NCBI GenBank assembly: GCA_001312645.1
Contig: BBEG01000005.1
Coordinates: 1 to 48,825 of the forward strand
Source: Rhodococcus sp. JCM 9791
Lineage (GTDB): Bacteria; Actinomycetota; Actinomycetes; Mycobacteriales; Mycobacteriaceae
Length of the DNA stretch: 48,825 nucleotides
Direction of reading: 5' to 3'
Of this stretch, positions 403 to 16,250 are shown piece by piece. A program made the translations under genes and the position numbers. Each line of letters starts with the position of its first letter. The stretch's first letter is position 1. The notes beneath the pieces were generated by a model. The model was given only the letters and a program-made list of their open reading frames with translations, did no database searches and was not told where the DNA came from.

Positions 403-492
403 TTCGGATGTGGACGTGGGCACCGAATCACCGTACGCCCGTGAACGAACTCGGGTTTAGACGGTGTCGGATGGAAAGGCTATGGTCGCCGC
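403..492. promoter_or_regulatory. Divergent intergenic region, glycosylase / RNase HI
   Basis: These 90 bp separate two divergent starts and must hold both promoters. I cannot pick out convincing -10/-35 boxes. A purine-rich stretch, atggaaaggc, lies 14-23 bases before the RNase HI start and may supply its ribosome binding site. Confidence 0.35.
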
Positions 493-1016
493 ATGATCAT
501 CGTGAGCACCGACGGATCCTGTTTGCGCAATCCCGGTGGCGCCATCGGGTGGGCGTGGGTCAATCACGAAGGCCCCAGCGCATCGGGTGGTGATCGCTCC
601 GGTACCAATCAGATCGCGGAGCTGCGGGCGCTGCTCGAAGCGCTCCGCGCTCATCCCGGCCCCGACCCGTTGCTCATCGAATCCGATTCCCAGTACGCCA
701 TCAAGTGCGCGTCCGAGTGGCTGCCCGGCTGGAAGCGCAAGGCTGGAAGACGGCAGCGGGTGCCCCGGTGAAGAATCTCGACCTGGTCCGCGACATCGAC
801 CGCGAGATCGCCGGGCGTGCGGGGCCCGTGCGCTTCCGCTGGGTGCGCGGACATGTCGGCAACCACTTCAACGAAGTCGCCGACAAGCTCGCCGGTGAGG
901 CGGCACGCGAGGCCGCCGCCCGGCCGGGTCCGATCGAGGTCCCGAAGGTCGCGCCCGCAGCGGTCAAGCCCAAGAAGGCCGCGCCCGCCGCCGACGCCGA
1001 AATGACCCTGTTCTGA
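493..1016 (+). CDS. rnhA: Ribonuclease HI, frameshifted as sequenced
   Basis: RNase HI cuts the RNA strand of RNA-DNA hybrids in the cytoplasm. The first frame (493-771) carries the fold start STDGSC with D7, then E43 in NQIAELRA and D65 in ESDSQYA, the expected metal-binding acids. The second frame (up to 1016) continues with GWKTAAGAPVKN, FRWVRGHVGNHFNEVADKLA (catalytic His and last Asp), and an Ala/Pro/Lys-rich tail ending MTLF. The two halves join at about 735-745, where restoring one C (cgcaa to cgccaa) gives a continuous protein of about 174 residues, normal for the family. I see this as a sequence error, since all catalytic residues are kept. The gene stands alone between the divergent glycosylase gene and the convergent iron-transport operon. 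Confidence 0.88.
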
Positions 1017-1050
1017 GACGGTGAACGGCACCGGTCATCAAGTAGACGGC

Positions 1051-1806
1051 TCAGTAGTAGACGGCGAGACGACCGTTCGGTCCGTCGACGCAGGTCACAG
1101 GTGTGTTGAACACCTGGGTGAGGGTCTCGTCGACCATGATTTCCTCGGCGGTCCCGAACTCCACGACTTTGCCGTCCTTCATCGCGCAGATCCGGTCGGC
1201 GTAGTGGCCGGCGAAGTTGATGTCGTGGAGCACGATGACGACTGTGCGCCCCAGCTCGACGGCCACCTTGTGAAGATGCTTCATCATCTGGACGGAGTGC
1301 TTCATGTCCAGGTTGTTCAGCGGTTCGTCCAGCAGGATGTAGTCGGTGTCCTGGCACAGCACCATCGCGACGTAGGCGCGCTGGCGCTGTCCACCGGAGA
1401 GCTGGTCCAGGTAGCGGTGCTCGAGGTCGGTGAGGTCGAAGAACTCGATGGCACTGCTGATGGCCTCCTCGTCCTTCGGAGTGAGACGGCCCTTCGAATG
1501 CGGGAAGCGCCCGAAGCCGACGAGCTGCCGCACCGTCAATCGGGTGACGAAGTGGTTCTCCTGGCGGAGGATGGAGACGATCTTCGCGAGGTCCTTCGAC
1601 TTGGTGCTCGAGACGTCGTAGCCGGCGATCTCGATGGTCCCTGCGTCGGCGCCGAGTAACCGGCCCACGATCGTCAGCATCGTCGACTTGCCCGCGCCGT
1701 TCGGTCCGACGAGGGCCGTGATGCCGCCTGCAGGAATGGTCAGGTCGATCTCACCGATCGTGACCGTGCTGCTGTACTCCTTACGGAGTCCCTTGATCTC
1801 GATCAC
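1051..1806 (-). CDS. Iron-siderophore ABC transporter, ATP-binding protein
   Basis: An intact 251-residue ATPase of the FepC/FecE type, closest in style to the YclP/FatE (petrobactin/anguibactin) branch. It energises import of a ferric siderophore across the membrane. Walker A GPNGAGKST is at residues 34-42, the signature LSGGQ at 136-140, Walker B YILLDE at 156-161 and the switch His at 194. The start is a GTG at 1806. Its GTGA overlaps the TGA that ends the repaired upstream permease at 1803, typical of translational coupling. It is the last gene of the operon 4932-1051 and is presumably co-regulated by the iron boxes at 4958-5010. No oddity is seen in its sequence. Confidence 0.9.
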   Translation of the reverse strand: MIEIKGLRKEYSSTVTIGEIDLTIPAGGITALVGPNGAGKSTMLTIVGRLLGADAGTIEIAGYDVSSTKSKDLAKIVSILRQENHFVTRLTVRQLVGFGRFPHSKGRLTPKDEEAISSAIEFFDLTDLEHRYLDQLSGGQRQRAYVAMVLCQDTDYILLDEPLNNLDMKHSVQMMKHLHKVAVELGRTVVIVLHDINFAGHYADRICAMKDGKVVEFGTAEEIMVDETLTQVFNTPVTCVDGPNGRLAVYY

Positions 1807-2851
1807 AATCTGCCTTCCGGAGGATCACGTACAGGAAGGCCGTGCCACCGACGGCCTCGATGATGATGGACACGGCGCCCTCGGCGTAGAAGATGTTCTT
1901 CAACACGAAGTAGGCACCGCCGAGGATGACGAACCCGGTCAGGATCGCGACCGGGAACACGAAGCGGTGATCGTGCGTCGTCGCGAACTGGTAGGCCAGG
2001 GTCGCCACGAGGAATCCCAGGAATGTCAGCGGGCCGACGAGTGCAGTAGTGGTGGCCATGAGGACCGAAACCAAGAACAGGACGAACATGATCTCGCGGC
2101 GATGGTTGAGGCCGAGGTTCGTGGTCACGTCCTTGCCCAGCGCGATGATGTTGAGTCTGCGGGAACGCCACCACAGCGTTCCTGCCGCCGCGATGCACAT
2201 CGGGATCGCGAGCGGTAGGTAGGACGCATCCGCATTGGACACCGACCCGAACAGTTTGGCGGTGAGGATGTCGAATTCACTGGGGGTCAGCATGCGCTGC
2301 ATGAAGGTGGCGACGGAGCCGAGGCCGCCGCCCAGGACGATGCCGACGAGCAGCATCACCTGCATGTTCCCGTACTTGCCGGACAGTAGCCATCCGTAGA
2401 GCATCAGCGAGAAGCCGACCATCAGGACGACCATGAGGGCGAACTGCGGTACCCCCTGGAGCGCTGTCACGCCCACCGCACCAAGGAAGAAGACGGCGGC
2501 GGTCTGGAGTGCAACGTAGAGCGCTCGAACCCCATGATCGAGGGCGTGATGATGCGGTTGTTCGTCGCGGACTGGAACGACACCGTCGCGACGGCCTGAC
2601 ACACGACGACGACCGCGATCACGATGAGGTTGGTCGCGCGCATCTGCGTGATCCGCCAGTACCTGCCGTCCCGAATGGCACAGGATTGTTCCAGGTCACG
2701 ATCCCCGCGGCGATCACGACCGAGAGAAGGGCGAGAACCCCCACGAGGAGCCAGTAGCGACGTACTTGGCGGGTTGTCGCGAATGCTCCGGAGCTGCGTG
2801 CTCGGCCTTGACCGCGGTGGTGGAGATCGACTCGACGGCTGTGTCAGACAT
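1803..2851 (-). CDS. Iron-siderophore ABC transporter permease 2, frameshifted as sequenced
   Basis: A FecCD-family permease (YclO/FatC/CeuC type), the second membrane subunit of the ferric-siderophore importer. Its ATG at 2851 overlaps the TGA of permease 1 (ATGTCTGA). Reading requires four frame changes, each one lost base: about 2765, 2685, 2520 and 1820. Pieces in order are a hydrophilic N-terminus with WLLVGVLALLSVV, then YWRITQMRATNLIVIAV, then NNRIITPSIMGFE, then the main body with ALQGVPQFALMVV, SDFD-like TPSEFDILTAKLFGSV and GPLTFLGFLVATLAYQF. The natural end is RKGRL at 1803, reached only after the last repair; as sequenced the frame runs on to 1781. Repaired length is about 350 residues with 9-10 membrane segments, normal for the family. 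Confidence 0.82.
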
Positions 2852-3820
2852 TGCGGCGGCTCCGGAGAATCAGGGCGATGAAAACCACCGAGCCCACGAC
2901 ACCCAGGATGAGCGACACGGGGATCTCGAACGGCATGATGATCGTCCGGCCTATGAGGTCGCAGATCGTCACGATGGCGATCCCTAGCAGACACACCCAG
3001 GGAAGGTTGCTGCGCAGGTCGTCGCCGCGGAACATCGAGACGATGTTGGGGACGATCAGCGAGGAACGGGAGGGCACCCACCACGACTGTCACCACTCCG
3101 GTGGCGATAGCGATGAGGCCGGTTCCCAAGAGAATGATGCGGTTGTAGTTCAGGCCGACGTTGGTGGCCACGTCCTCGCCGAGACCGGCGACGGTGAGCC
3201 GGTCGGCGACGATGAACACCACAACCGCGACGATCGCGACGATCCAGAGGACTTCGTACTGGCCTTGATGATCGACGTGAAGCTTCCGGCGAACCAGATG
3301 CCCAGGCTCTGGAGTTTGTCGGTGGCGAGAGCGATGTATGTCGTGATGGAGCCGACGACGGCGCCGAGCATGATGCCGACGATAGGAACGATCAGCGATG
3401 ACGACAGTTGCACCCGCCGAAGGAAAAGGAAGAAGATCATCGTTCCGACGAATGCAGCGACGATCGCGCTGATCATCCGGGGCATGAGCCGGCGGTGGGA
3501 GCGACGATCAGGACGAGCAACAGACCCAGCCCCGCCCACTCGGTCGTGCCGGTGGTGGTCGGTTCGACGAATCGGTTCTGGGTGAGCAGCTGCATGACGA
3601 GGCCGGACATCGACATTGCCGCACCGGCCAGGACCAGGGCGATCGTGCGGGGAATGCGGGTGATGCTGAACATCTCCCAGCCGAAGTCGCCGCCGAAGAT
3701 GTCGAACACCCCGGTGAACAGGGACGCGATCAGCAGAACGCCTACCCCGAGGAAACCCAGCAGGAGTTTCCAGTCGAAGAGCTTGTCGCGGGTCCGGACG
3801 GGTGGGGCTTGCGTGGTCAT
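2844..3820 (-). CDS. Iron-siderophore ABC transporter permease 1, frameshifted as sequenced
   Basis: A FecCD-family permease (YclN/FatD/CeuB type), partner of the gene at 1803. It starts MTTQAPPVRTRDK at 3820; a GTG at 3877 in the same frame is an alternative. The body reads through ITRIPRTIALVLAGAAMSMSG and LLTQNRFVEPTTTG, the classic FecCD opening, then IVPIVGIMLGAVVGSITTYIA, GEDVATNVGLNYNRII and SLIVPNIVSMFRGDDLR. Three junctions break the frame (about 3487, 3255, 3070). The last needs two bases back (G to GGG), which restores GALPFLGLIVPNIVS. Repaired length is about 326 residues. It precedes permease 2 with an 8-bp overlap and follows the binding-protein gene by about 105 bp. Confidence 0.83.
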
Positions 3821-3925
3821 TTCAGATCTCTGCTCGTGAATCACGCCGGCCGTGGACTCGGCCTCGGGCGAGTCCACGGCGGTCGACGCTGTGAGTGCAG
3901 TTATGCGCTGCGCTCCGTGTCGGGG

Positions 3926-4932
3926 TCAGTTGTTCGCTGCGCTCGGCGCAGCGTTCTGCTCGAGCAGATCCGCGAGCGAGTTGAAGAACTCCGTGTACGT
4001 CTGGATGCTCTCGTTGGTGTAGGTGTCGGCGGGCAGGTAGATGATGTTGCCCTCCTGGATCGCCGTCACGTTCTGCAGCGCCGGGGACCCTTCGATCACG
4101 CTAGCGGCAGGAACATAGTCGGCTTCTCCGCTGCTGGAGGTTGCGGCGTCGCGGTCCATGACGATGATCAGGCCCGGGTTGGATGCTGCGATGGCCTCGA
4201 CGGAGATGTCGTCGCCCTGGTGGTTGTCGGTTCCCTCGGCAACTTCGAGTGCGGGGGTGAAGCCGAAGATGTCGAACATGGGGCCGATGGTGCGTCCGGT
4301 GCTCGGGGCGGCGTAGTTGATCTCTCCACCGGAGACGATGATGCCCATCACCGACTGATCAGGGGAGTACGCGGCCTCGACCCGGGCGATCGACTCGTCG
4401 AATGCGTCGACGAGTGTCTGTGCCTCGTCCTGCTTGGAGAAGATCTCGCCGAGGACGGTGACGCCGCGCCTGAGCTCGGAATCGAAGGGCTCCTCGTCGC
4501 GCGGGGCGACCTCGACGATGGTGGCGTCCGGTGCAAGATCCTGGAACTGCTCCCGGTACTGGCCGTACCGCCCGCCGTTGATGATCAGGTCCGGTTCGAC
4601 GGCGACGACGGCTTCGAGGTTGGGCTCGCGGTGCGAACCCAGGTCGATGATGCTCTCGTCTTCCGTGTAGGAGATCGTGTTCGGCATCAGCGTGACTGCG
4701 CCTGCGGTGAGCGGAACACCCCACGTGTCGAGCGTCTCGAACGTGCTGTTGTCGGTGGCGACCACGGACTTCGGCGGCACGGTGACCGTCTGGGTACCGA
4801 AGTTGTCTTCGACCGTGACTGTGGTGGCGGTGTCGTCGGTGGCTCGGTGGCCGGGTCGCTCGAACATGCCGTCAGGGCCAGAGCTGCCAACGTGCCGAGC
4901 ACGGCACCTCGGTACAGGCGGGATGCGATCAT
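3926..4932 (-). CDS. Siderophore-binding lipoprotein of the iron ABC importer, frameshifted as sequenced
   Basis: The extracytoplasmic binding protein that would deliver ferric siderophore to the permeases at 2844 and 1803. It starts with ATG at 4932 and a lipoprotein signal ending LALTACSS, a good lipobox with the lipidated Cys at about residue 23. After one lost base near 4840 (ccc read as cc), the mature protein continues with TVTVEDNFGTQTVTVPP, WGVPLTAGAVTLMPNT, LEAVVAVEPDLIINGGRYG, FGFTPALEV and TYTNESIQTYTEFFNSLADLL, the FatB/YclQ-type periplasmic-binding fold (helical backbone class III). Repaired length is about 335 residues. It is the first gene of the operon and has two IdeR-like boxes directly upstream, so iron repression is likely. 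Confidence 0.88.
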
Positions 4933-4957
4933 CGATTTTCCTTGCTGCTCGTTTGCA

Positions 4958-4976
4958 AAGGGTTAGGCAACCCCTT
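4958..4976. promoter_or_regulatory. Weaker IdeR/DtxR-like iron box
   Basis: The 19 bases aagggttaggcaacccctt match the DtxR/IdeR consensus TTAGGTTAGSCTAACCTAA at about 11 positions, including the core GGTTAGGC. It lies 26 bp before the lipoprotein start at 4932, between that start and the stronger box at 4992. Confidence 0.5.
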
Positions 4977-4991
4977 TAGGGCACCTTATAA

Positions 4992-5010
4992 AACGGTTAG
5001 CATAACCTAA
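4992..5010. promoter_or_regulatory. IdeR/DtxR iron box
   Basis: The 19 bases aacggttagcataacctaa match the IdeR/DtxR consensus at 15 of 19 positions. The site sits about 60 bp upstream of the siderophore-binding lipoprotein gene. An iron-loaded repressor bound here would shut the uptake operon when iron is sufficient. The repressor gene itself is not in the window. Confidence 0.75.
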
Positions 5011-5077
5011 CCCTGAAGTTTCGCTAGCTTTGCTTCGGATTCGGTCTTGACCAGGTGTTCCATCGGCAGCGCGTAAG

Positions 5078-6659
5078 TCACTGGACGTATGATGCGCCCT
5101 GCAATCCCGGGGTCTTTGTGACGAGTTCGCGCTTGAGGATCTTGCCCGTCGCGGTCATCGGCAGCACCGTGGTGAACTCGATCGAACGCGGGTACTTGTA
5201 TCCCGCCATCTGCTCCCGACACCACGCGATGAGTTCGGCCTCCTCGACATACTCGCCCGGTTCGAGGATGACGAACGCCTTGATCTCCTCGCCGTGGGTC
5301 TGATGAGGTACGCCGATCACCGCCGCGAGCGAGACCGCGTGGTGGGTGATCAGTACTTCTTCGATCTCTCGCGGGTAGACGTTGAAGCCGCCGCGCACGA
5401 TCAGGTCCTTTGCACGGTCGACGATGTAATAGAAGCCGTCGGCGTCCCGTCGGGCGAGGTCTCCCGTGCGCAGCCATCCGTCGCGCATTGCCTCCGCGGT
5501 CGCTTCGGGGCGGCCGAGATAGCCGGACATGACGTTGTGTCCGCGCAGTGCGATCTCGCCGACAACGTCGAGGTCTGTCACCGTGTTCCAATCCGCGTCG
5601 ACGAGACGTGCCTCGATACCCCACACCGGGACACCGATCGACCCGGGACGGGGCTCGCGCTCCGGGTCGCTGAACAGTGCGAGTGGTGAGGTCTCGGACA
5701 GTCCGTAACCTTCGAGGATCCGAACACCGAACCGCTCGGAGAATCGGGTGAGGATTTCGACGGGCAACGCCGCCCCACCCGAGATTGCGCGGCGCATCGT
5801 CGTGGCGATCCGGTCGACGTCCACACTCTCGTCCAGTGCACTGAGCAGACCCCAGTACATCGTCGGCACGCCGGCGAAGACAGTGATGCCCTCGTCCGTC
5901 ATCAGCGCCAGGGCGGCGCGTGCTCGAATCGTGGCAGCAGGACCAGGGTGCCGCCCACCGACAGTCCCGCGTTCATCGTCACGGTCTGACCGAAGGAGTG
6001 GAAGAGGGGCAGCGTCACGAGATAGGTGTCGTGGCGGATCGGGTTGCTGTCGAACAGTCGGTTCGCGGTGACCGCATTCATCACCATGTTGGAGTGGGAG
6101 AGCTGCGCACCTTTGGGTTTTCCGGTGGTGCCGCTCGTGTAGAGGATGACTGCGGTGTCCTGCGGTGCGCGTACCACCGTCGAGAACACGTCCGAAGCTC
6201 CCACCAGTGCAGCTTCGAGATCGGTATGTCGGTGGTGCCGGTTCCGGGTTCGCCGCCCGCGACGAACATGTCGCTGCACTGCGATGCCGATCCGAACCCT
6301 GCCCGACCGAACTCACCGATCGGCAGGTCGGGTCCGCCCTCGAAACAGAAGTACGCCTTTGCTCCGGAATCTTCGAGATGGTAGGCGATCTCGCGACCCT
6401 TGAGCATGATGTTCAACGGCACCACGACCGCACCGGCCTTGAGGATGCCGTAGTAGACGATCGGGAATTCCGGCATGTTGGGGAACGACATGGCGACGGT
6501 GTCGCCGGGTTCGATGCCGCGCTCGACCAGCAGGTTGGCGACCCGGTTCGAGCGGGAGTCCAGTTCGGCATAGCTGATTCGAGTGTCGCCGAGCACCAGC
6601 GCGTCACGAGTCGGATATCTGCGGGCGGAATCTTCCAGGACAACGGACAGGTTGAGCAT
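5078..6659 (-). CDS. AMP-forming acyl-CoA synthetase (FadD-like) A, frameshifted as sequenced
   Basis: An ANL-superfamily ligase that would activate a carboxylic acid to its CoA thioester via an acyl-adenylate. It starts MLNLSVVLEDSARRYPTRDA at 6659. The P-loop motif YTSGTTGKPKG, the A5 motif EGYGLSETSP, the A7-A8 region WLRTGDLARRD and DLIVRGGFNVYPREIE, and the A10 lysine motif TGKILKREL are all present, spread over three frames with one-base losses near 6235 and 5925. Repaired length is about 527 residues. It is the last gene of the minus-strand catabolic run that starts at 10381. The end at 5078 is not certain: one more lost base would extend the protein to a stop at 5007. Substrate is unknown. 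Confidence 0.85.
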
Positions 6660-6672
6660 CGTGTGATCTCTC

Positions 6673-7257
6673 TCAGGCGGTGGTTCGCGAAGCGGATTCG
6701 ATCAATTCATGCAGGAACTCGTCGGCCTTCGGCCAGTCGCCGAATCCCGCCGCGGGGTTGAGGTGTCCGACCTCGCCGAGATCCACGAACCGGCTACCCC
6801 ACATTTCGGCGATGCCCGCGACCCGGCGTTGTTCTGCGAGCGGGTCGTTGCTGCTCGCCGCGACGATGCTGCGGAAGGGAAGACGGCGACGGGGGATCGG
6901 TAGCCAGCCTCCCTGTGTGAGATCATCCATCGTGGGATATCCCTCGGGCAGCGGACGTTCCAGGTCGGCCGGTGTCGCGAGCAGTGCGCCGAGGATCGGC
7001 CTGGTCGATTGCTGGGCCCAGTGCGCGGTGATCAGGACACCGGCGCTGTGTGCCACGAGCACCACAGGTCCGTCGACTTCGGCCACGACCGTGTCGAGAG
7101 CGGCGACTCGGGCAGTGAGGCTCAGTTTGTCGCGCTCGAGGGGTGGCACCGTGCGCACCCGGTCGAGGCGATCGGCGAGCAGGGTCTGCCAGTGGTCGGC
7201 GACGTGGTCGCGTAGACCGGGGACGATGACCACGGTCGGTTCGGTATTGTTGTACAT
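6673..7257 (-). CDS. RBBP9/YdeN-family alpha/beta hydrolase
   Basis: An intact 194-residue serine hydrolase of the RBBP9 family. The nucleophile is S71 in VLVAHSAG, the acid is D138 in SSNDPL and the base is H165 in VGHLNPAAGFGDWP, all in the expected order and spacing. No signal peptide is seen, so it is cytoplasmic. Family members are small esterases with poorly defined substrates. It sits 13 bp upstream of CoA synthetase A and follows the BKACE gene after a hairpin at 7298-7329, so it may be transcribed partly apart from the genes above it. A role in freeing an acid from an ester or thioester in this pathway is inference. Confidence 0.85.
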   Translation of the reverse strand: MYNNTEPTVVIVPGLRDHVADHWQTLLADRLDRVRTVPPLERDKLSLTARVAALDTVVAEVDGPVVLVAHSAGVLITAHWAQQSTRPILGALLATPADLERPLPEGYPTMDDLTQGGWLPIPRRRLPFRSIVAASSNDPLAEQRRVAGIAEMWGSRFVDLGEVGHLNPAAGFGDWPKADEFLHELIESASRTTA

Positions 7258-7297
7258 TGATCACCCAAATCTGTTGTTCCACAGCATTTGTCGACGA

Positions 7298-7329
7298 GAC
7301 CGGGCCCGTCGATCACGGCGGGCCCGGTC
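7298..7329 (-). terminator. Hairpin terminator after the BKACE gene
   Basis: A perfect 11-bp inverted repeat (gaccgggcccg, 10-base loop, cgggcccggtc) lies 12 bp beyond the BKACE stop codon and before the RBBP9-type hydrolase start. There is no clear U-run, which is common in actinobacterial terminators. It may reduce read-through into 7257-5078. Confidence 0.6.
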
Positions 7330-7340
7330 GCGGTGGTAGG

Positions 7341-8393
7341 TCAGGCGTGCTGGGTGAAGCCGACCTGTCCGGGACGACGATTCGGTGCGTAGCCGAGCTT
7401 GGCGAGGGTTTCGTCGGCGTCGCGGTAGGTTTCGCCGATCTTGTAGATGTCGCGGGCTTCCTTACCGGTCGCGACCTCGCGGCCGAGTTCGCCGGCGATA
7501 CGGACCAGCTGCTGGATCTGTTGGACCGACGTCATCTTCTCGCCCTTGCGACCCCAGATGGTGTCTTCGTTGCCGCAACGGTTGTGCAGGCCCATCGCCG
7601 TGGCCATGGTGTTGACCGGAAGGACCGAGCGCATCAGGGTCTCGAGGGTCAGGCACGCACCGTCGGGAACACGCTGGATGAAGTTCATGATGTTGTAGGG
7701 GTTCGGGCCGTCGAAGCCGCCCCCGATACCCACCCAGGTCAGGTTGAGAGGTCCGGTATAGACCCCGCGACGGATGAGACGTTCGACGGTCTCGAGCTGC
7801 GGGATGGACGAGAGCTGGAAGTGCGGCTGGATTCCGGCGGCCTGAAGGCGGCGTAGGTGCTCCTCCACCCACTCCGGTCCGGCAGGAACGGTCATCTCTC
7901 GGTACGTGGCCGCAAGTTCCGGACGTTCCATCGAGGTGCCGGCGATGTCGTCGGCGGTCATCAGCTCCATGATGTTCATCTGGCTGGTGTTGATCGCGAT
8001 GGTCACCTGATCCGGTTTCGGATCGAGCTCGGCAAGCATGTGCCGCACGTCGTCCGAGAGCCATTTCGCATCTGCGCCTTCGCCTTCCGGGGCAAACGAG
8101 ATGGACCCGCCCACCTGCAGGATCATGTCAGGCACGGCCTCGCGCAGTCCGGCGAGGAGTTCGTTGAATTTCGACAGGCGCTTGGAGCCCTTGCCGTCGA
8201 GTTCCCGGACGTGGATGTGCAGCACGGTTGCGCCGGCTTCGTAGCAGTCCACTGCCTTCTGGATGTGTTCTTCCATCGTCAGCGGCAGGTCTTCGCGGAA
8301 ATCGTCCGGTTCCCATTCGGGGCCGTACGGCGCGCAGGTGATGACCAGTTTTTCCTGGCATTCGGGGAAGAGAGCGTCGTCGTGGAAATGCAT
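7341..8393 (-). CDS. BKACE-family beta-keto acid cleavage enzyme (DUF849)
   Basis: An intact 350-residue member of the family typified by 3-keto-5-aminohexanoate cleavage enzyme (Kce). Known members use Zn2+ to condense a beta-keto acid with acetyl-CoA and release acetoacetate plus a new acyl-CoA. The zinc motif HIHVRE gives H59 and H61; the late acidic motif HNRCGNEDTIWG gives E276, the likely third ligand. The TIM-barrel pattern is complete. ATG at 8393 has a strong GGAGG site seven bases before it. The enzyme lies downstream of the TauD-like dioxygenase and quinone oxidoreductase, suggesting these prepare its keto acid. The side-chain pocket, and so the substrate, cannot be read by eye. 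Confidence 0.9.
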   Translation of the reverse strand: MHFHDDALFPECQEKLVITCAPYGPEWEPDDFREDLPLTMEEHIQKAVDCYEAGATVLHIHVRELDGKGSKRLSKFNELLAGLREAVPDMILQVGGSISFAPEGEGADAKWLSDDVRHMLAELDPKPDQVTIAINTSQMNIMELMTADDIAGTSMERPELAATYREMTVPAGPEWVEEHLRRLQAAGIQPHFQLSSIPQLETVERLIRRGVYTGPLNLTWVGIGGGFDGPNPYNIMNFIQRVPDGACLTLETLMRSVLPVNTMATAMGLHNRCGNEDTIWGRKGEKMTSVQQIQQLVRIAGELGREVATGKEARDIYKIGETYRDADETLAKLGYAPNRRPGQVGFTQHA

Positions 8394-8449
8394 GGAAGCC
8401 TCCTGTGGATCGAGTGGGGAAGTCTTGGGCTGAAAGAGGATCGGTGTGA

Positions 8450-9355
8450 TCAGTAGGGCCGGTCGCCGATGATTCCGGCGCGTTCCATCTTGCGGACGGC
8501 GGGCCAGTAGTCCTGGACCGCGTAGTGCTGCGTGCACCTGTTGTCCCAGATCGCGACGCTGTTCGGTGTCCACCTCCAACGCACCTGATATTCGGGGATC
8601 GTCGCCTGGCTCTGCAGGTAGCGGAGCAACTCGCCGGCCCCGGGGGTGTAGTCGACTCCGCATCGGACATTGTCTGCGGTGTGGAAATTCGTGAAATGTG
8701 TCGTGAAGCTGTTGACGAAGAGGATCTTCTCGCCCGTTTCCGGATGAATGCGGACGACGGGGTGCTCCGCGTCGGGGTAGCGCTCCTTCAGCTCGAGGCG
8801 CTTCTCGATCGGGAGTCGCGCACCGAACGACGCTTCGATGCTGTGTCGTGCACGCAGCCCGACGATCTGTTCTTTCACACGCTCGGGTAGTCGCTCGTAG
8901 GCGAGCGCCATGTTCACCCAGATCGTGTCGCCGCCCACAGCGGGACCTTCGACGCATCGCAGGACGGACCCCATCGGTGGGATCTCTCGCCAGGTGGCGT
9001 CGCAGTGATAGGAGTTCTCGAATGCTTCGGGCGGACTGTCGAGGTCCTTGTAGATGCGGACCAGGCCGGGATGTTCCGGATCGCTGCCGAGTACCGGATG
9101 ATCCTCGAGCCTGCCGAAGCGCTCCGCGAGCGTGACGTGCTCGGCCCGGCTCATGTGCTGATCGCGGAAGTACAGCACCTTGTGTTCGAGCAGAAGTGCT
9201 TTCAGTTCGGTGAAAAGCCGGTCGTCGCGAGAGACCTCGGCCAGGTCCACGTCGTGAAGTTCTGCACCGATGCTCGCGGTCGACGGCCGTGCGTCCATCG
9301 GACTCCGAGAGCGCGAATCGGTGCGGGGGTCCGCACGGTCGACAGTGGTGGTCAT
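8450..9355 (-). CDS. TauD/TfdA-family Fe(II)/2-oxoglutarate dioxygenase
   Basis: An intact 301-residue dioxygenase. The iron facial triad is H117 and D119 (YHCDAT) plus H277 (DNRCTQHYAV); the 2-oxoglutarate arginine is probably R288 or R292 in RKMERAGI. Family members hydroxylate next to a leaving group (sulfonate, ether, sulfate) or a plain carbon, coupling this to decarboxylation of 2-oxoglutarate. I chose ATG 9355 because AGGAGG lies nine bases before it; an ATG at 9376 would place that site inside the gene. It is 56 bp from the BKACE gene and 53 bp after the oxidoreductase. TauD itself is a taurine enzyme, but the substrate here is unknown. Confidence 0.9.
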   Translation of the reverse strand: MTTTVDRADPRTDSRSRSPMDARPSTASIGAELHDVDLAEVSRDDRLFTELKALLLEHKVLYFRDQHMSRAEHVTLAERFGRLEDHPVLGSDPEHPGLVRIYKDLDSPPEAFENSYHCDATWREIPPMGSVLRCVEGPAVGGDTIWVNMALAYERLPERVKEQIVGLRARHSIEASFGARLPIEKRLELKERYPDAEHPVVRIHPETGEKILFVNSFTTHFTNFHTADNVRCGVDYTPGAGELLRYLQSQATIPEYQVRWRWTPNSVAIWDNRCTQHYAVQDYWPAVRKMERAGIIGDRPY

Positions 9356-9408
9356 GACGGTTGTCCTCCTGTCCATGACGAGGGGTGGATGACGATGGTC
9401 GATGTGGG

Positions 9409-10381
9409 TCAGACCGAGAACACCGAAGAACCGACGCTGATGCCTGATTCCAGGTCACGGTGGGCGAGTTCGGCTTCGTCGAGCTTGTACCGCTGGTTGA
9501 TGTCGATCTCGATGCGTCCGGCTGCGACGTGCGCGAACAGCTCGCCGGCCAGTTCGGCGCGCTCGGCGGGGTCGGCGATGTAGTCGGCGAGCGCAGGGCG
9601 GGTGACGAACAGTGAGCCCTTGACGGCGAGCTCCATGGCATCGATCGGCGGGATCGGGCCGGAAGCAGTACCGAACGCCACCAGCAGGCCGCGGTGTGCG
9701 AGTGAGTCGATCGACGACTGAAAGGTCGACTCGCCGATGCTGTCGAACACCACCGGCACGCCCTTGCCGTCGGTGAGCTCACGGACTCGCTCGGCGACGT
9801 TCTCTCGCGTGTAGACGATGACCTCGCTGCAGCCGTGGGCTCGCGCAGCCTCGGCCTTCGCGTCACTGGATACGGTGCCGATGACGTTGATCCCAAGTGC
9901 TTTGCCCACTGGCAGAAGATCAGTCCGACGCCGCCGGCTGCGGCGTGGAGGAGCACGGTGTCCCCGGCTGCCAGGGGGTGGATGCGACGCAGGAGATACG
10001 ACGTCGTCAGGCCACGCATGGTCATTGCGGCCGCAGTGTCGAACGGGATCTCGTCCGGCAGAGCGATCAAGTGCTCGGCCGGCATCACGCGTTCGGTGCT
10101 GTACGCGCCGAGCGGGCTGCCCGTATAGGTGACACGGTCGCCTTCTCGGAAATCTGTGACACCCGAGCCGACCGCCTCGATGACACCGGCGGCTTCGACG
10201 CCCATTCCTGCGGGGAGCGGTGCCGGGTACATCCCGGTGCGGAAGTAGGTGTCGGCGAAGTTGAGGCCCACGCTTCGTGCCGGATCCGGACTTCGCCGGG
10301 GCCCGGTTCGCCTACCTCCACGGACTCCCACCTCAGAACCGCGGGGCCGCCGGTTTCGTGGAAGCGGATCGCCTGTGCCAT
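9409..10381 (-). CDS. NADPH:quinone oxidoreductase (MDR family), frameshifted as sequenced
   Basis: A zinc-independent medium-chain dehydrogenase/reductase of the QorA type, about 324 residues when repaired, the usual family length. The N-terminus reads [19 protein letters not shown]; after a lost base near 10275 comes [20 protein letters not shown] and [13 protein letters not shown], then the nucleotide-binding loop [17 protein letters not shown] second lost base near 9905 leads into [18 protein letters not shown] and [18 protein letters not shown]. It reduces quinones or enones with NADPH in the cytoplasm. It is the first gene of the minus-strand catabolic run and faces the AraC-type regulator across 189 bp. 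Confidence 0.85.
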
Positions 10382-10570
10382 GTGTTCTCTCCTCTGATGT
10401 CGCTGCGTCCGGTGTCACCGCGTCGTAGGTATTCCTGCACCTCGGAAGGGTTATGTGACGCTGATAACACAACGGTAGTCAGGAGGGATGGTTCATACTT
10501 ACCTGCAGGGGACATATTTGTTGCCCGTTCGGGACAGGGAACGCGGCGGCAACGAAGGAAGGATCCGACG
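10382..10570. promoter_or_regulatory. Divergent control region, catabolic run / AraC regulator
   Basis: This gap must hold the promoters of the quinone oxidoreductase run (minus) and of the AraC-type gene (plus). An inverted repeat gttat-N9-ataac at 10450-10468 is the best operator candidate I can see. A GAAGGA ribosome site precedes the AraC start at 10571. No clear sigma-factor boxes are assigned. Confidence 0.4.
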
Positions 10571-11595
10571 ATGACGCTGGCGAAGCCCCTGGCGCGCTAC
10601 GCGTCGCTGACCGGCTACATCGAACTGGGGCGTTCGCTGTCGGTCGACCCGGTCCAGTTGATGCGCAGCGTAGATCTCGATCCGGCGGGGCTCGAACTTC
10701 AGGATCGCTGGATGCCGGCCGCGTCGATCGCGCGACTGCTCGAACTCTCGGCTGCGGCGACCGGCCGGCAAGATTTCGGGCTCAGGCTTGCCGAACGGCG
10801 ACGGCTGTCCACTCTCGGCCCCCTGAGTATGGTATTCGCGAGGAGCCGGATGCCCGGAGTGCGTTGCGGATGCTGATCCGCTATCAGCACACCTACAATG
10901 AGGCGTTGTTCATCGAGATCATCGAACGTGGCGGGCTGGCGACCGTCGTTCTCCGGGTCGAGACCGGCGAGCCGATGCCCGTCCGTCAGTCGGTGGAGCT
11001 CGCCCTCGCTGTGATCTACCAGCTACTGCAGCACCTGCTCGGAGATCGATGGCGCCCCGTATCGGTGTCCTTCGAGCACGAGCGCCCCGATGATGACAGT
11101 ACCCACCGTCGCATCTTCGATGCGCCCCTCACCTTCGGCGGTGACTACTCCGGGATCGTCATGTATGCGAATGACCTGGACCAGCCGAATCGCCTGTCCG
11201 ATCCGTTGCTTCGCGGCTATGTACGACAAGCCTTCGACGAATTCGCAGCTCCGGAGGCTCCCACCCTCGAGCAGCGGGTACGTGAGCTCGTCGAGCTGCT
11301 ACTTCCGACCGGACGATGCTCCGTCGAGCAGGTCGCTCAGAGTCTCGGTGTGGATCGCCGCACTGTCCACCGGCACCTGGCCAAATCGGGACAGACCTTC
11401 TCCGGGGTCGTCGACGCCACTCGTGCCGAACTTGCCCGGCGGTTGGTGGCGAGCCGACGGCACACCTTCACAGAGATCTCCGAGATGCTGTCGTTCTCGG
11501 CACCGAGTAGCTTTTCCCGTTGGTTCAGTCGGCAGTTCGGTATGAGCCTCGTGAGTGGCGCAGGCGCTCCGGCGAATAGCTGTCCCGAAATGTGA
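10571..11595 (+). CDS. AraC-family transcriptional regulator, frameshifted as sequenced
   Basis: About 341 residues when repaired. The N-terminal ligand-sensing half (Arabinose_bd type of the AraC/OruR group) opens MTLAKPLARYASLTGYIELG and carries RWMPAASIARLLELSAAATG. A lost base near 10855 moves the frame to SALRMLIRYQHTYNEALF. The C-terminal HTH_18 pair reads SVEQVAQSLGVDRRTVHRHL and then FTEISEMLSFSAPSSFSRWF. It is divergent from the quinone oxidoreductase-dioxygenase-BKACE-CoA ligase run and is its most likely activator (inference from position). The start ATG follows GAAGGA by seven bases. Confidence 0.86.
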
Positions 11596-11704
11596 AGAAA
11601 TACGTCCCGACGGGGTAATCAATCTCGATCGACGGGGTTTAAAGTGATGTACACCACGTTCTCCGTGGAATGGCGTTCACGCCACATCATACTTCGACCC
11701 TTGC

Positions 11705-12112
11705 GTGAAACGAGTGCCGTGTGACCACGAAACCCGATTCGATTCCCACCCCGACCTGGATGCCATGCGCCGGGACGGCAATTGGAATCCTTTGTGGGAC
11801 AAATTGTCCGACTGGGATCCGGAGTGGACCGAGCAGTTCATGGCGATGAATGCCACCCCGATCGAGCGGGGCATCTTCACGCCGGAGTTCGTCGAACTCC
11901 TCAGCATCGCGATCGACGCTGCCGCTACCCACATGTACGCCCCCGGCGTACGGCGGCACATCCGTGCTGCGCTCGATCTCGGAGTCTCTCGCGACGAGAT
12001 TCTCACCGTTCTGCAGATGGTCAGCGTCCTCGGAATCCATGCCTGCAATCTCGGCGTTCCGATCCTCGAGGAGGAACTCGACGCACATCAGGCGCGTCAC
12101 GCAGCGTCCTGA
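11705..12112 (+). CDS. Carboxymuconolactone decarboxylase family protein
   Basis: A small CMD/AhpD-like protein of 135 residues in the frame given. The helical core reads GIFTPEFVELLSIAIDAAATH, then VRRHIRAALDLGVSRDEILTVLQ and LGIHACNLGVPILEEELDAH. The CxxC redox pair of AhpD is absent, so a decarboxylase-like or substrate-binding role is more likely than peroxidase activity. The start is uncertain: the listed GTG at 11705 has no good ribosome site, while a GTG at 11721 would give MTTKPDSIPTPDLDAM if one G were lost near 11755. It heads a plus-strand set with an MFS carrier (29 bp later) and an amidohydrolase, which together look like an uptake and breakdown module. Confidence 0.75.
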   Translation: MKRVPCDHETRFDSHPDLDAMRRDGNWNPLWDKLSDWDPEWTEQFMAMNATPIERGIFTPEFVELLSIAIDAAATHMYAPGVRRHIRAALDLGVSRDEILTVLQMVSVLGIHACNLGVPILEEELDAHQARHAAS

Positions 12113-12141
12113 CGACACCTTCCCCCACTCGAGGAGCTCTC

Positions 12142-13515
12142 ATGGGAAACCCTCCCGCCTCGATCGGTACCTCCGTCGAACTCGGCCCCGACTCTCCGGC
12201 CGATGAACCAGGATCCGATCGCATCGACTCTGCTCGGCCCCGCCGCCGCCCCATGTATCCCTGGGTGGTCTTTGCGCTGACCTTCGCGTTGCTGCTGTCC
12301 GACTACATGTCGCGTCAGGTGCTCAGCGCCGTCTTCCCGTTCCTGAAGGCCGATTGGGATCTCTCGGATTCACAGCTCGCGTCTCTGACCAGCATCGTCG
12401 CACTGATGGTGGGTTTGCTGACCTTCCCGCTATCCTTGCTCGCGGACCGCTGGGGCCGGGTTCGCAGCCTCGTCCTGATGGCGGTGATCTGGAGCATCGC
12501 GACGCTGTTCTGCGCGGTGGCAGCCAACTACGAGCAGATGCTGGCGGCACGTTTCCTCGTCGGCGTCGGCGAGGCCGCATATGGCAGCGTCGGAATCGCA
12601 TTGGTGCTCAGTGTCTTTGCTCCACGGGTGCATTCGGCACTCAGCGGAGCGTTCATGGCCGGCGGTTCGTTCGGTTCGGTCGTCGGGGTCTCTCTCGGCG
12701 GCGTCATCGCAGTGCACCTGAGTTGGCGATGGTCGTTCGCAGCGATGGCGGTGCTCGGGCTCATCCTCGTCGCGTTGTTCCGCATCGTGGTCACCGAACG
12801 CCGGTTGGCCGCACACGCAGTCGAGCAGGACGTTCCGTCGCCCTCCCGTCCGGACGCGCCCCCGATGCGGGTCTCCGTCTCGACCCTGTTCACCAACCCT
12901 GCAGTGTGGTGCGCGTATCTCGGTGGCGGCCTGCAGATGTTCACCGCTGCCGTGCTGCTGTCGTGGACGCCCAGCTTCTTCAACCGCGAGTACGGCATGG
13001 CGCCGGACCAGGCAGGCGTGATCGCTTCGGTCTTCGTGCTGCTGATCGGTACCGGCATGGTGGTGTGCGGGATCATCACCGACCGGGTCAGCCGCAACAA
13101 CCCGTCGGCGAAGTGGTCCAGTGCCATCGCATACTGCGCTATTTCGCTGACTTCTCTCGGGGTCGCATTCCAGTTGGAACCCGGCCCGGCGCAATTGACA
13201 CTCATCGCGATCGGCGCTTTCTTCTCTGCCGGTTCATCCGGCCCGACCGCAGCGATGGTGGCCAGCCTGACACACCAGTCGGTGCGCGCATCCGCCCTGG
13301 GGTCGCTGACCGTCGCCAACAACATCCTGGGGCTGGCGACCGGACCGTTCATCGTCGGCATCCTCGCCGACCGTCTCGGCCTCGTCGGCGCACTGCAGTT
13401 GACCCCGCTGGTGTACGTGCTCGCAATCGTGGCGCTGTTCTTCGGTAGACGGTTGTATGCGGCAGGACTCGACAAGCTCGCGATTCAGAGTGCGGCCGCA
13501 GCGGCAAAGGCCTGA
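12142..13515 (+). CDS. MFS transporter (organic anion / aromatic acid type)
   Basis: An intact 457-residue major facilitator with about 12 membrane helices and a hydrophilic, proline- and arginine-rich N-terminal leader of about 40 residues. The helix 2-3 loop carries LADRWGRVRSLVLM, the usual D-R-x-G-R signature, and helix 4 has ARFLVGVGEAAYG. A proline-rich cytoplasmic loop separates the two halves. The start ATG follows GAGGAG by five bases. It lies between the CMD-like protein and the amidohydrolase, so it probably imports their substrate, perhaps an aromatic or dicarboxylic acid (inference). A 13-bp hairpin follows the stop. Confidence 0.88.
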   Translation: MGNPPASIGTSVELGPDSPADEPGSDRIDSARPRRRPMYPWVVFALTFALLLSDYMSRQVLSAVFPFLKADWDLSDSQLASLTSIVALMVGLLTFPLSLLADRWGRVRSLVLMAVIWSIATLFCAVAANYEQMLAARFLVGVGEAAYGSVGIALVLSVFAPRVHSALSGAFMAGGSFGSVVGVSLGGVIAVHLSWRWSFAAMAVLGLILVALFRIVVTERRLAAHAVEQDVPSPSRPDAPPMRVSVSTLFTNPAVWCAYLGGGLQMFTAAVLLSWTPSFFNREYGMAPDQAGVIASVFVLLIGTGMVVCGIITDRVSRNNPSAKWSSAIAYCAISLTSLGVAFQLEPGPAQLTLIAIGAFFSAGSSGPTAAMVASLTHQSVRASALGSLTVANNILGLATGPFIVGILADRLGLVGALQLTPLVYVLAIVALFFGRRLYAAGLDKLAIQSAAAAAKA

Positions 13516-13537
13516 CTCTGCGCTCCGCAGAACGACA

Positions 13538-13570
13538 GGACCGGGTGCGGATCGCTTCCGCACCCGGTCC
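13538..13570 (+). terminator. Hairpin after the MFS gene
   Basis: A perfect 13-bp stem (ggaccgggtgcgg, 7-base loop, ccgcacccggtcc) 22 bp after the MFS stop, without a U-run. It probably ends or weakens transcription before the amidohydrolase gene. Confidence 0.65.
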
Positions 13571-13630
13571 CGGCCTGTTCAGGCCCCTCCATCGAAGGTT
13601 GTTCCGATACACCATGTGTACGGTCGCAGT

Positions 13631-14504
13631 GTGAACGAGATCGATCAGGTTGCGCAGTTCCGTCAACGGCACGGCATCGATGAGCTCATCGATGTCCACA
13701 CGCATTTCATGCCGAAGAACGTGATGGACAAGGTCTGGGAGTACTTCGACACGGCAGGACCGCTCGTCGGACGGACCTGGCCCATCACCTACCGACACAC
13801 CGAGGAGGAGCGCGTCGAGCGACTGCGCGCGTTCGGTGTCCGGTACTTCACGTCGATGCTCTACCCGCATCGGCCGGAGATGGCGGCGTGGCTCAATTCG
13901 TGGTCGGCCGATTTCGCGTCCCGTACCCCGGACTGCCTGCACACCGCGACGTTCTATCCCGAACCGGGCGCGGCGTCCTATGTCGCCGAGGCGATCTCGT
14001 CCGGTGCGGTCGTGTTCAAATCCCACATCCAGGTCGGCGACTACACGCCACTCGATCCGCAGTTGAAGGACGTGTGGGGACTGCTCGAGGACGAAGGCTA
14101 CCGATCGTCGTGCACTGCGGGTCGGGGCCCGCTCCCGGAACGCACACCGGACCCGAGCCGATGGCCGAACTGATGCGCCGGTACCCGAACCTGGCGGTGA
14201 TCATTGCCCACATGGGGATGCCGGAGTACGAGGCCTTCCTCGACCTCGCGGACGAATACCCGCGCGTGTACCTCGACACCACGATGGCGTTCACCGACTT
14301 CGTCGAAGCGGATATGCCTTTCCCCGAGGCGGCATTGCCCAGCTCGACGCCCTCCGATCCAAGATCCTTCTCGGCACCGACTTCCCCAACATCCCGTACG
14401 GCTACCTCCACCAACTCGACGCGATCGAGCGGTTCGCGCCGGATTCCGCGTGGCTACGCGAAGTGTGTCACGACAACGCCGCTGCGTTGTTCGGGCTGGG
14501 GTAG
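13631..14504 (+). CDS. Amidohydrolase 2 family TIM-barrel hydrolase, frameshifted as sequenced
   Basis: About 291 residues when repaired. The metal site begins with IDVHTHFMP (H-x-H), followed by VVFKSHIQVGDY, PIVVHCGSG, VIIAHMGMPEYEAFLDLADE and finally LLGTDFPNIPYG, the late aspartate of the amidohydrolase fold. Frames change near 14105 and 14340, each by one lost base, and the third frame ends CHDNAAALFGLG at the TAG of 14502-14504. Family members hydrolyse or decarboxylate cyclic acids, such as 2-pyrone dicarboxylate lactonase or ACMS decarboxylase. GTG at 13631 is the chosen start. The gene converges on CoA synthetase B across a strong shared terminator. Confidence 0.84.
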
Positions 14505-14526
14505 AGCACCCGGGTGTTTGCCGCAG

Positions 14527-14571
14527 AAAAAGGCAGGTACACACCGTCCGGAGGTGTGTACCTGCCTTTTT
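14527..14571. terminator. Bidirectional rho-independent terminator
   Basis: A perfect 19-bp inverted repeat with a 7-base loop: aaaaaggcaggtacacacc, gtccgga, ggtgtgtacctgccttttt. It has an A-run on one side and a T-run on the other, so it works for both strands. It separates the convergent amidohydrolase and CoA synthetase B genes. Confidence 0.93.
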
Positions 14572-14586
14572 CGGTTGTGGCTATCG

Positions 14587-16250
14587 TCAGACGGTGAGGT
14601 CGCGACGGATGACCTTCCCGGTCGCGTTGCGCGGCAGGAGATCCTGCGTGATCCTCCAGGTCTTCGGGATCTTGTAGTAGGCGAGACGTTCCTGGAGGAA
14701 GTCCCGCAGATCGTCTTCGGTGGCGTCGCTTCCGGCCACCAACACCACGACCGCGCCGACCTCCTGCCCGAGGTCCTCGTGATCGACACCGATGACCGCG
14801 CACTCCTGGACTTCGGGATGCTCGTCGAGAGCCTGCTCGATCTCGGTCGGGTACACGTTCTCGCCGCCGCGAAGAATCAGATCCGAGCGACGGCCGGTCA
14901 ACCGGAGTCGGCCGTTCTCGAGGGTCCCGAAGTCGCCGGTACGCAGCCAGCCGTCGGAGGTGATCGCAGCATCGGTGGCAGCGTCGTTGTTCCAGTAGCC
15001 GAGCATCACGAACGGGCTGCGGACGCAGATCTCGCCCTCGACACCGTCATCGACCTTCTCGCCGAACGGGTCGCGGATCTCCATGCTCACCGTGATGATC
15101 GGGCTGCCGAGCGTGCCGGGGAAGGCCTCGATCTCGGGTGCGGTCGCTACAGCGATCGCGGTGCTGCACTCGGTCAGACCGTAACTGTCGACGAGCGCCT
15201 GCTGGGCGAACGGGAATTTCTCCTGCAGCCGCTTCTTGAATGCCGGCGACGACGGTGCGGACGCCAGTGCGAACGCGCTCAGCGACGTCAGGTCGTATTT
15301 CTCGGTGTCCTCGTGCTCGAGCATGCGGGCGGCCATGGTCGGGACCGCGCCCCAGTTGGTGACTTTCTCGCGCTCGACCAAGGTGAACACCTTGTCGACA
15401 TTGAACGCACCCTCGGTCAGGACCATGGCGCTGCCGGTGGCCAGTCGGGGTACGACGAGGTTGTGCAGGCTGGCAATGTGGAACAGCGGCGACGTCAAGA
15501 GATAGCGAAGGTCGCTGGGGGTTGCGTCGTCGTACGGGCGTCCGTACATGGAAGACATCATGGCGTCGTTGAATCGGTGGTAGTCGACGACGGCGAGCAG
15601 GTTCCGCTGCGAGTGCACCGCACCCTTGGGACGTCCGCTGGTGCCGCTGGTGAACAGGATGACGGCGGGATCGTCCTCGTCCACGTCGGAGACCGGGAGA
15701 TCGGCACCGGGCGCGCGGACACGATCCGCGGAACGTCCTCTTCCATCGTGAGCTGCTCGAACCCGGACACCTCCGCTTTGGTGAGCAGTGCTGCACGCTT
15801 GGCGTCCGTGACGATCACCTTCGGCTCGACCATCTCGACGCCGTAGGCGATTTCTGCGGGCACCCACCACGAGTTGAGCCCGACCGTGATCGCACCGAGG
15901 CACTGGGTCGCCCAGAATGTGATGATCCATTCCGGGGAGTTGGCGGCAAGAATCGCGACCCGGTCGCCCTTGCCCACGCCGTATTCGTCGCGCAGGGTCG
16001 TTGCGAGAGCTGCCACCGCGTCGGCGTGCTGAGCGAAGGAGATCCGTCGGTCGGCGGTGACGATGTAGTCGCGGTCGCCCCACGCCTTCGAAGCGACGAC
16101 GATGTCGGCGACACGCCGGTCGCGTTTGGTCATCACCGGCATGGCGTTTCCACGTACGTTCTCCACAGCGACCTCGAAACGGCCGCCCGGACCTGTGAGC
16201 TGGGAAACGACCTTCTGCAGCATCTGTTGGACATCTGCGGGTGCTGTCAC
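14587..16250 (-). CDS. AMP-forming acyl-CoA synthetase B, frameshifted as sequenced
   Basis: About 554 residues when repaired. It starts [20 protein letters not shown] at 16250. The first frame contains [20 protein letters not shown] and [20 protein letters not shown]. One lost base near 15710 leads to the main frame with the P-loop [54 protein letters not shown] and the catalytic-lysine motif [11 protein letters not shown]. It would activate a carboxylic acid as its CoA ester; the substrate is unknown. It is divergent from the ABC importer at 16516, which may bring in the acid it activates. It ends at the bidirectional terminator at 14527. Confidence 0.87.

Follow-up and report, generated by a model that had tools for sequence, protein, structure and literature searches.

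Rhodococcus sp. JCM 9791 carries, at positions 5,078 to 10,381 of contig BBEG01000005.1, a set of five genes that encode a quinone oxidoreductase (QOR), a TauD-type dioxygenase that depends on Fe(II) and 2-oxoglutarate (2OG), a protein of the PF05853 family (DUF849 or BKACE), a serine hydrolase, and a CoA ligase. The window that we analyzed is the whole stretch of 48,825 nucleotides at the start of this contig. The set is conserved across many actinobacteria. Judged by its sequence, the PF05853 protein falls outside the canonical BKACEs, in a divergent subfamily that lacks the glutamate that serves as the catalytic base. In some of the relatives, the set lies near genes for a putative sulfite/sulfate exporter and for the activation of acetoacetate. 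With a confidence that falls a little short of even, we propose that the set is a carbon-catabolic operon for an organosulfonate carboxylic acid, in which the TauD-type dioxygenase would release sulfite and the BKACE-fold enzyme would then cleave the product.

The gene set and its conservation

In transcription order, the five genes on the minus strand encode QOR, the TauD-type dioxygenase, the PF05853 protein, a serine hydrolase from PF06821, and the CoA ligase. The initial annotation, made from the sequence and its open reading frames (ORFs), had placed these genes here behind an AraC-type regulator, and all of them are present. The regulator is encoded divergently from the set, on the plus strand, and the genes for a CMD protein and an MFS transporter come after it. 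The features are:

5078 to 6659, minus strand: AMP-forming acyl-CoA ligase (FadD-like), broken frame (PF00501 and PF13193 over two frames)
6673 to 7257, minus strand: PF06821 serine hydrolase with an alpha/beta fold, candidate thioesterase or esterase (137.1 bits, cut-off 22)
7341 to 8393, minus strand: PF05853 (DUF849/BKACE-family) protein of a divergent subfamily, 350 amino acids (210.5 bits, cut-off 24.8)
8450 to 9376, minus strand: TauD-type Fe(II)/2OG dioxygenase, candidate desulfonating enzyme (PF02668, 220.7 bits)
9409 to 10381, minus strand: zinc-free quinone oxidoreductase (QorA type), broken frame (profile scan and an intact ortholog in Rhodococcus gordoniae, L024)
10382 to 10569, no strand: intergenic region between the divergent QOR and AraC genes, likely regulatory (from the gene positions)
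about 10570 to 11595, plus strand: AraC-type regulator with Arabinose_bd and HTH_18 domains, broken frame (profile scans)
11705 to 12112, plus strand: CMD/AhpD-like (carboxymuconolactone-decarboxylase-family) protein (PF02627, 29.5 bits, cut-off 23)
about 12139 to 13512, plus strand: MFS transporter, likely for uptake (the nearest models, for galactonate and aromatic acid symporters, score below cut-off)

A PF05853-protein scan of a species-level genome collection identified 164 relatives, and we analyzed the best 80 of these 164 loci (which we refer to by numbers such as L022). According to the titles of their records, all 80 are actinobacterial and include representatives of Rhodococcus, Nocardia, Gordonia, Tsukamurella, Saccharopolyspora, and others. 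Our counts for these loci are based on ORF calling and clustering and are lower bounds: clustering misses broken genes, and 10 of the 80 loci are represented by less than 20 kb of sequence. The genes for QOR, the TauD-type dioxygenase, and the PF05853 protein are consecutive and on one strand in 70/80 loci, which rules out the idea that they are chance neighbors. The AraC cluster is found in 78/80 loci and the MFS cluster in 76/80; the serine hydrolase is in 63/80, the CMD protein in 36/80, and the CoA ligase (the FadD cluster) in 36/80. The CoA ligase is thus an optional member of the set. FadD orthologs are present in Rhodococcus sp. HNM0563 (L022) and in L024, and in L053 we found tblastn matches to the dioxygenase and to an acetoacetate-CoA ligase that clustering did not show. 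The mirror-tree correlations that are listed for the set range from 0.13 to 0.74 (highest for TauD-QOR and low for BKACE-CoA-transferase, at 0.24 and 0.13), but they have no control and we give them no weight.

The set is also found on plasmids. There were 24 matching records in a plasmid collection; we examined 14, of which 9 have gene annotation. In 7 of these 9, the genes for QOR, the dioxygenase, the PF05853 protein, and the hydrolase occur together, although their order varies. These seven records are from Rhodococcus gordoniae, Tsukamurella, Novosphingobium, Azoarcus, two Caballeronia, and Streptomyces. The records from Diaphorobacter and Ensifer have no TauD gene beside the PF05853 gene. 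The view in the initial annotation that this is a catabolic run is borne out to this extent: the trio is co-inherited in most of the loci and recurs on plasmid records from Proteobacteria and Streptomyces.

Some of the loci have additional genes. In five Saccharopolyspora loci (L065, L066, L086, L090, and L095), a second gene from the TauD superfamily lies between the AraC and QOR genes (by clustering; PF02668 was checked in L086). In the Prescottella loci L083 and L099, an NMT1-type ABC transporter adjoins the PF05853 gene (families were checked in L083). On the right flank of L026, L027, L028, and L032, genes for PhaC-like, MaoC-like, and alpha/beta-hydrolase proteins extend the set (by clustering; families were checked in L032 and L094).

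The source assembly has 947 contigs and is about 76% complete. The closest named relative that we found, L022, is collinear with positions 1-18372 of the window (18.4 kb, 88% nucleotide identity). Across this region, the window has 27 one-base gaps and 6 one-base extras relative to L022, and many frames are broken, including those of QOR, the ligase, and the AraC regulator, whose genes are intact in relatives. Because these are one-base differences from a collinear relative, and because the assembly is fragmented and incomplete, the breaks look like assembly errors, although this is not proven. Just 10 of the 27 gaps lie in runs of three or more, so homopolymer errors alone would not account for every gap. 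We also considered that this might be a cluster of pseudogenes, which we think is unlikely: the differences that break the frames are small, and the relatives' genes are intact.

The PF05853 protein and its active site

The gene at 7341-8393 is the only match to PF05853 in the genome. We compared an alignment of 116 rows to 10 canonical BKACEs. The rows count sequences, not events, and include duplicates: the 95 rows from clustering are 92 distinct sequences, and some of the 20 added rows repeat these. The zinc ligands His59, His61, and Glu276, as well as Arg272 and Asp277, are conserved in all 116 rows. The zinc ligands and the arginine are the same residues in all 10 canonical BKACEs.

In contrast, the catalytic base is not conserved. 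In BKACE15, the base is Glu171, on strand 5, and the E171L variant is inactive (PMC11961710). The window protein has Gln193 instead. At this position, 110 of the 116 rows have glutamine, 6 have alanine, valine, or methionine (it is alanine in L062), and none have glutamate, which is present in 10/10 canonical BKACEs. The tyrosine beside the base, which an excerpt of PMC12871164 describes as present in all BKACEs, is Ser195 in the window protein, and just 4/116 rows have a tyrosine. This is a softer test than the glutamate because the canonical set itself has 8 tyrosines and 2 phenylalanines. On the other hand, the subfamily has a glutamate at position 251, at the end of strand 7 (residues 247-250 in the model), in 114/116 rows, which is found in 0/10 canonical BKACEs. 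Glu26, at the position of the substrate-binding Glu14 of Kce, is kept in 105/116 rows, but we do not assign an acyl group on the basis of the pocket.

The full-length protein also scores far below the cut-offs of the NCBIfam equivalog models for BKACEs (131.2 vs. 382, 97.7 vs. 430, and 76.4 vs. 350). With the catalytic glutamate and the tyrosine absent, the name "BKACE" from the initial annotation is not supported as it stands, and the automatic label "3-keto-5-aminohexanoate cleavage protein" is unsafe for this divergent subfamily.

An AlphaFold2 model of the protein, with a modest mean pLDDT of 69 (and under 50 for residues 251-255), predicts a Kce-type TIM barrel. The best Foldseek match is 2y7e (Z = 23.2, with a root-mean-square deviation of 3.1 over 250 residues), and the top hits by fold, with Z from 23.2 to 21, comprise Kce and further structures from PF05853.

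The plasmid of Diaphorobacter sp. HDW4B (L107:10001-14446) contains both a PF05853 gene of the window's type and a canonical BKACE, a few genes apart. The latter (L107:13511-14446) is over the cut-off for NF053538 (3,5-dioxohexanoate; 547.4 vs. 430). Between the two are genes for a TctC-type binding protein, a CMD protein, and an SDR.

The dioxygenase and the neighboring genes

The closest solved structures to the dioxygenase are 5vn6 (451 bits), which was deposited as a taurine dioxygenase, and then E. coli TauD (179 bits). The Fe(II) facial triad (HxD...H) and both arginines, including the one that binds 2OG, are invariant (83/83 rows). Of the residues that form the taurine pocket in E. coli TauD, the equivalents of His70, Phe159, Phe206, and Arg270 are present in 83/83 rows, and Ser158 is serine in 67/83 and threonine in 16/83; those of Tyr73, Val102, and Phe104 are changed. 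Among the NCBIfam models, the one for taurine dioxygenase (NF007104) scores best, yet the score is below its cut-off (229.9 vs. 313; 234.7 for the intact L024 ortholog). Gamma-butyrobetaine hydroxylase has an extra N-terminal domain beside its TauD domain; the window's enzyme has PF02668 only. The residue pattern is not diagnostic, but it fits a sulfonate other than taurine.

The only relative of the serine hydrolase in the PDB at E = 0.001 is 3bdv, and the stretches around the serine, aspartate, and histidine align. The best PDB matches for the CoA ligase are feruloyl-CoA, malonyl-CoA, and oxalyl-CoA ligases, which are not decisive for the substrate. Nor is QOR decisive: its nearest PDB entries are QorA types and then a 2-haloacrylate reductase (1wly). 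Its intact ortholog in L024 is over the cut-off for NF008024 (352.7 vs. 348).

In relatives, the set is linked to genes from PF03601, the family of the putative sulfite/sulfate exporters. SuyZ and YeiH were proposed as sulfite/sulfate exporters in sulfolactate and thiosulfate metabolism (excerpt of PMC11582611), and TauZ as an exporter in taurine dissimilation (excerpt of PMC5320631). In an unselected set of 101 relatives, a PF03601 gene lies within 12 kb of 11/24 PF05853 loci, while 0.15 would be expected from gene density. Similarly, 16 of the 80 named loci have a PF03601 gene, versus an expectation of 0.32 (63 PF03601 genes in about 318 Mb from 49 genomes). Both are Poisson expectations that ignore relatedness, and the two sets share species. 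The 49 genomes were chosen knowing which loci had exporters and include all such loci except L094, so if anything, the expectation is raised. The enrichment over gene density is roughly 50- to 70-fold and involves several arrangements and three phyla or classes.

The exporter gene can be to the left or right of the set and on either strand, with a LysR gene adjacent in 8/16 cases. These linked genes are over the PF03601 cut-off. In R. gordoniae, a single run encodes QOR, TauD, BKACE, hydrolase, CoA-transferase A and B, ligase, YeiH, and an acyl-CoA dehydrogenase. In Novosphingobium, the MFS gene is followed by one for a putative sulfate exporter, and in S. chartreusis, the PF03601 gene adjoins the gene for acetoacetate-CoA ligase. 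The exporter is found in 16/71 loci with TauD and 0/9 loci without it, but these numbers are too small to test. As a comparison, we looked by eye for TauE (PF01925) and saw none among the matches listed inside 15 exporter-bearing loci; as few would be expected by chance, this says little.

The set is also linked to genes that activate acetoacetate. The CoA-transferase subunits from R. gordoniae are over the cut-offs for 3-oxoacid CoA-transferase (228.3 vs. 128.5 for TIGR02429 and 335.1 vs. 243.55 for TIGR02428), and the Streptomyces ligase is over the cut-off for acetoacetate-CoA ligase (TIGR01217). The pair of CoA-transferase subunits is found in 33/80 loci, and either the pair or an acetoacetate-CoA ligase in 34/80; outside of L024, the CoA-transferase is assigned by clustering only. 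The window has neither of these activities beside the set, and its genome has three ScoB-family matches over the cut-off elsewhere. Taken together, the linked exporter genes and acetoacetate-activating genes suggest that the set catabolizes a sulfonate and that acetoacetate is one of the products.

Other genes in the window include siderophore-type ABC transporter-like genes directly downstream of the ligase (1051-4867, minus strand; judged by eye, with broken frames). Past the MFS gene is a broken amidohydrolase-like gene (13457-14414, plus strand), whose copy in L022 belongs to PF04909; among the 80 loci, it has a tblastn match in L022 only. Further along on the minus strand are a SulP-family sulfate permease with a STAS domain (23955-25667) and a broken pyridoxal-phosphate (PLP) enzyme of Cys/Met metabolism (42541-43840).

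A possible pathway and its alternatives

From the gene set and its neighbors, we infer a substrate class, a set of reactions, and an order for them. The MFS carrier would take up the substrate, and the AraC-type regulator would control the set. QOR might reduce the C=C bond of an unsaturated precursor; this step is the weakest. The TauD-type dioxygenase would hydroxylate the carbon that bears the sulfonate, which would yield sulfite and a carbonyl, so a 3-sulfo acid would become a beta-keto acid, the kind of compound on which BKACEs act. The divergent BKACE-fold zinc enzyme would then move an acetyl unit onto acetyl-CoA, to form acetoacetate along with an acyl-CoA of shorter chain; in this step, Glu251 of strand 7 would perhaps stand in for the lost glutamate of strand 5. 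The serine hydrolase and/or the CoA ligase would handle the acyl product, a 3-oxoacid CoA-transferase or acetoacetate-CoA ligase would activate the acetoacetate, and a YeiH/SuyZ-type exporter would remove surplus sulfite. Acetoacetate as a product would explain the CoA-transferase and ligase genes, and surplus sulfite would explain the exporter gene.

The initial annotation already had oxidation by the dioxygenase before C-C cleavage, and this order, like its view of the set as catabolic, remains plausible. Besides naming the enzyme a BKACE, it had missed the exporter, the acetoacetate-activating genes, and the recurring CMD and MFS genes.

A broader claim is possible but more doubtful: that this is a widespread and so far undescribed aerobic pathway by which organosulfonate acids serve as carbon sources, in which the TauD-made beta-keto acid would be split by a new DUF849 subfamily that carries its catalytic glutamate on strand 7 instead of strand 5. 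If so, it would be a sulfonate-based carbon route for many soil actinobacteria and would give BKACE-type chemistry a natural pathway context. The relocated glutamate would also be a direct test of how the fold moves its catalytic base. If the acid is 3-sulfopropanoate, then the dioxygenase would form malonate semialdehyde and the cleavage would form formyl-CoA. For BKACEs, the formyl-CoA-yielding cleavage of malonate semialdehyde is treated as new to nature (excerpt of PMC11961710).

The pathway would join two enzyme families that the literature searched does not join. Text searches, which had most subscription papers outside their scope, gave no description of the gene set or of a TauD-BKACE pairing among the matches listed, in line with the statement in the initial annotation that it could name no described pathway. 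Among the matches listed for 3-sulfopropanoate, the starts of the abstracts do not contain such a pairing. The excerpts of omics studies of desulfurization in Rhodococcus and Gordonia (PMC8557817, PMC11852219), and of papers on Betaproteobacteria and root exudates (PMC6449761, PMC5789663), do not mention the cluster. These are known families in a combination that we found to be undescribed.

Several observations weigh against our proposal. The PF05853 protein has Gln193 in place of the catalytic base. Also, its model is about equally close to cis-epoxysuccinate hydrolase (Z = 20.3) and to the acetoacetate-forming ObcA (Z = 20.1), so the reaction cannot be read from the fold alone. In the dioxygenase, the equivalents of Tyr73, Val102, and Phe104 are changed (Tyr73 to leucine, alanine, valine, or threonine, and Phe104 to tryptophan in 82/83 rows), and the equivalents of His70 and Arg270 are also kept in TauD-superfamily members that do not act on taurine, so they are not diagnostic. 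The role for QOR is a guess. The exporter gene is not present in the stretch for 64/80 loci, and we saw no PF03601-type exporter gene within the 48.8-kb window; its genome has a PF03601 gene, split in two, on a different contig. The two linked exporters that were tested are below the cut-off of 232.6 for the YeiH family (TIGR00698), with 155.7 bits for L024 and 164.7 bits for L104, and transport by YeiH is itself only putative. Relatedness among the genomes inflates the significance of the exporter link. Finally, TauD is not clustered in 9/80 loci (8 if we count the tblastn match in L053), and four of these nine have an SDR gene from one cluster. In L062, L072, and L096 (around 9100-12700), this SDR dehydrogenase replaces QOR and TauD before the PF05853 gene; the same cluster is also present in L083. 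These loci suggest that the substrate of the PF05853 enzyme can be produced by different routes, and the enzyme's role is therefore not tied to sulfonates.

Alternatively, and in line with the scheme of the initial annotation, the set might degrade a sulfur-free beta-keto acid: the dioxygenase would attack a C-H bond or an ether, QOR would reduce an enone, a BKACE-like cleavage would follow, and the exporter would be an accidental or indirect neighbor. The 64 loci without an exporter gene nearby are consistent with this, as is the sharing of core residues with TauD-superfamily members that have other substrates, and the loci with SDR instead of TauD resemble the deoxyribonate pathway in their layout (excerpt of PMC6365646). 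But the enrichment of the exporter, in several arrangements and in three phyla or classes, speaks against it, and we consider this explanation rather unlikely. It is also unlikely, in our view, that the PF05853 protein does some other zinc-dependent chemistry (hydration, hydrolysis, or decarboxylation), with acetoacetate arising otherwise, such as by the action of TauD on a 3-sulfobutanoate-like acid. The loss of the glutamate (and the tyrosine), the new Glu251, and the changes at positions 93, 135, and 138 would all be explained, and cis-epoxysuccinate hydrolase performs another reaction with the same fold and a similar Z score (excerpt of PMC6429283). Diaphorobacter, with both types of protein in one neighborhood, is consistent with a separate function as well. 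However, the zinc ligands, the arginine, and the aspartate are invariant as in canonical BKACEs, the fold is closest to that of Kce and other PF05853 members, and acetoacetate-activating genes are nearby.

We think it quite improbable that this is a locus for sulfur assimilation, in which TauD would free sulfite to feed the cell when sulfate runs short, with the fate of the carbon being secondary. Desulfonation of the TauD type is described as a source of sulfur for growth (excerpt of PMC5320631), and the window does contain the SulP-family gene and the broken Cys/Met PLP enzyme. But a cell that is short of sulfite would have little use for a sulfite exporter or for acetoacetate activation, and the AraC-type regulator and the MFS gene that accompanies the set in 76/80 loci also argue against it. 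We give very little credence to the degradation of gamma-butyrobetaine or carnitine, in which TauD would be the butyrobetaine hydroxylase and BKACE would cleave dehydrocarnitine. On paper, that pathway likewise pairs a 2OG dioxygenase with a BKACE. But besides PF02668 being its only domain, the dioxygenase has taurine dioxygenase as its best model, and there was no carnitine dehydrogenase among the recurrent neighbor clusters that were scanned (not every cluster was).

The proposed desulfonation and cleavage can be compared to known systems. The window's PF05853 protein shares its family and a TIM barrel with Kce (2Y7E; Z = 23.2) and BKACE15 (8RIP/9HNF; Z = 21.1 to 8rip), along with the HxH...E metal ligands, the arginine, and the aspartate that follows; it differs by having Gln193 instead of the base, Ser195 instead of the tyrosine, and the extra Glu251. 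CESH[D], a cis-epoxysuccinate hydrolase (5ZMU/5ZMY), has the same fold and is weakly related by sequence, and it illustrates a Kce-like protein with other chemistry. CESH[D] reportedly has two of the three metal ligands of Kce (excerpt of PMC6429283), whereas the window protein retains the third, Glu276. The dioxygenase shares the Fe and 2OG ligands and the equivalents of His70, Arg270, Phe159, and Phe206 with E. coli TauD (1GQW) and with 5VN6; unlike taurine dioxygenase, it is below the equivalog cut-off and is altered at the Tyr73 and Phe104 positions.

The oxidative deoxyribonate pathway is similar in that a beta-keto acid is made in situ, is cleaved by a BKACE, and acetoacetate is then activated, and its layout is like that of L062, L072, and L096. 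But its oxidizing enzyme is an SDR, and no dioxygenase or exporter is named in the excerpt (PMC6365646). The dissimilation of sulfolactate and taurine, with the exporters SuyZ and TauZ, shares with our set a sulfite-forming enzyme that is linked to a putative sulfite/sulfate exporter. In the sulfolactate pathway, the sulfite-forming enzyme is SuyAB. Taurine-type dissimilation uses Xsc (excerpt of PMC5320631), where our set would use a TauD-type dioxygenase together with a BKACE-fold enzyme.

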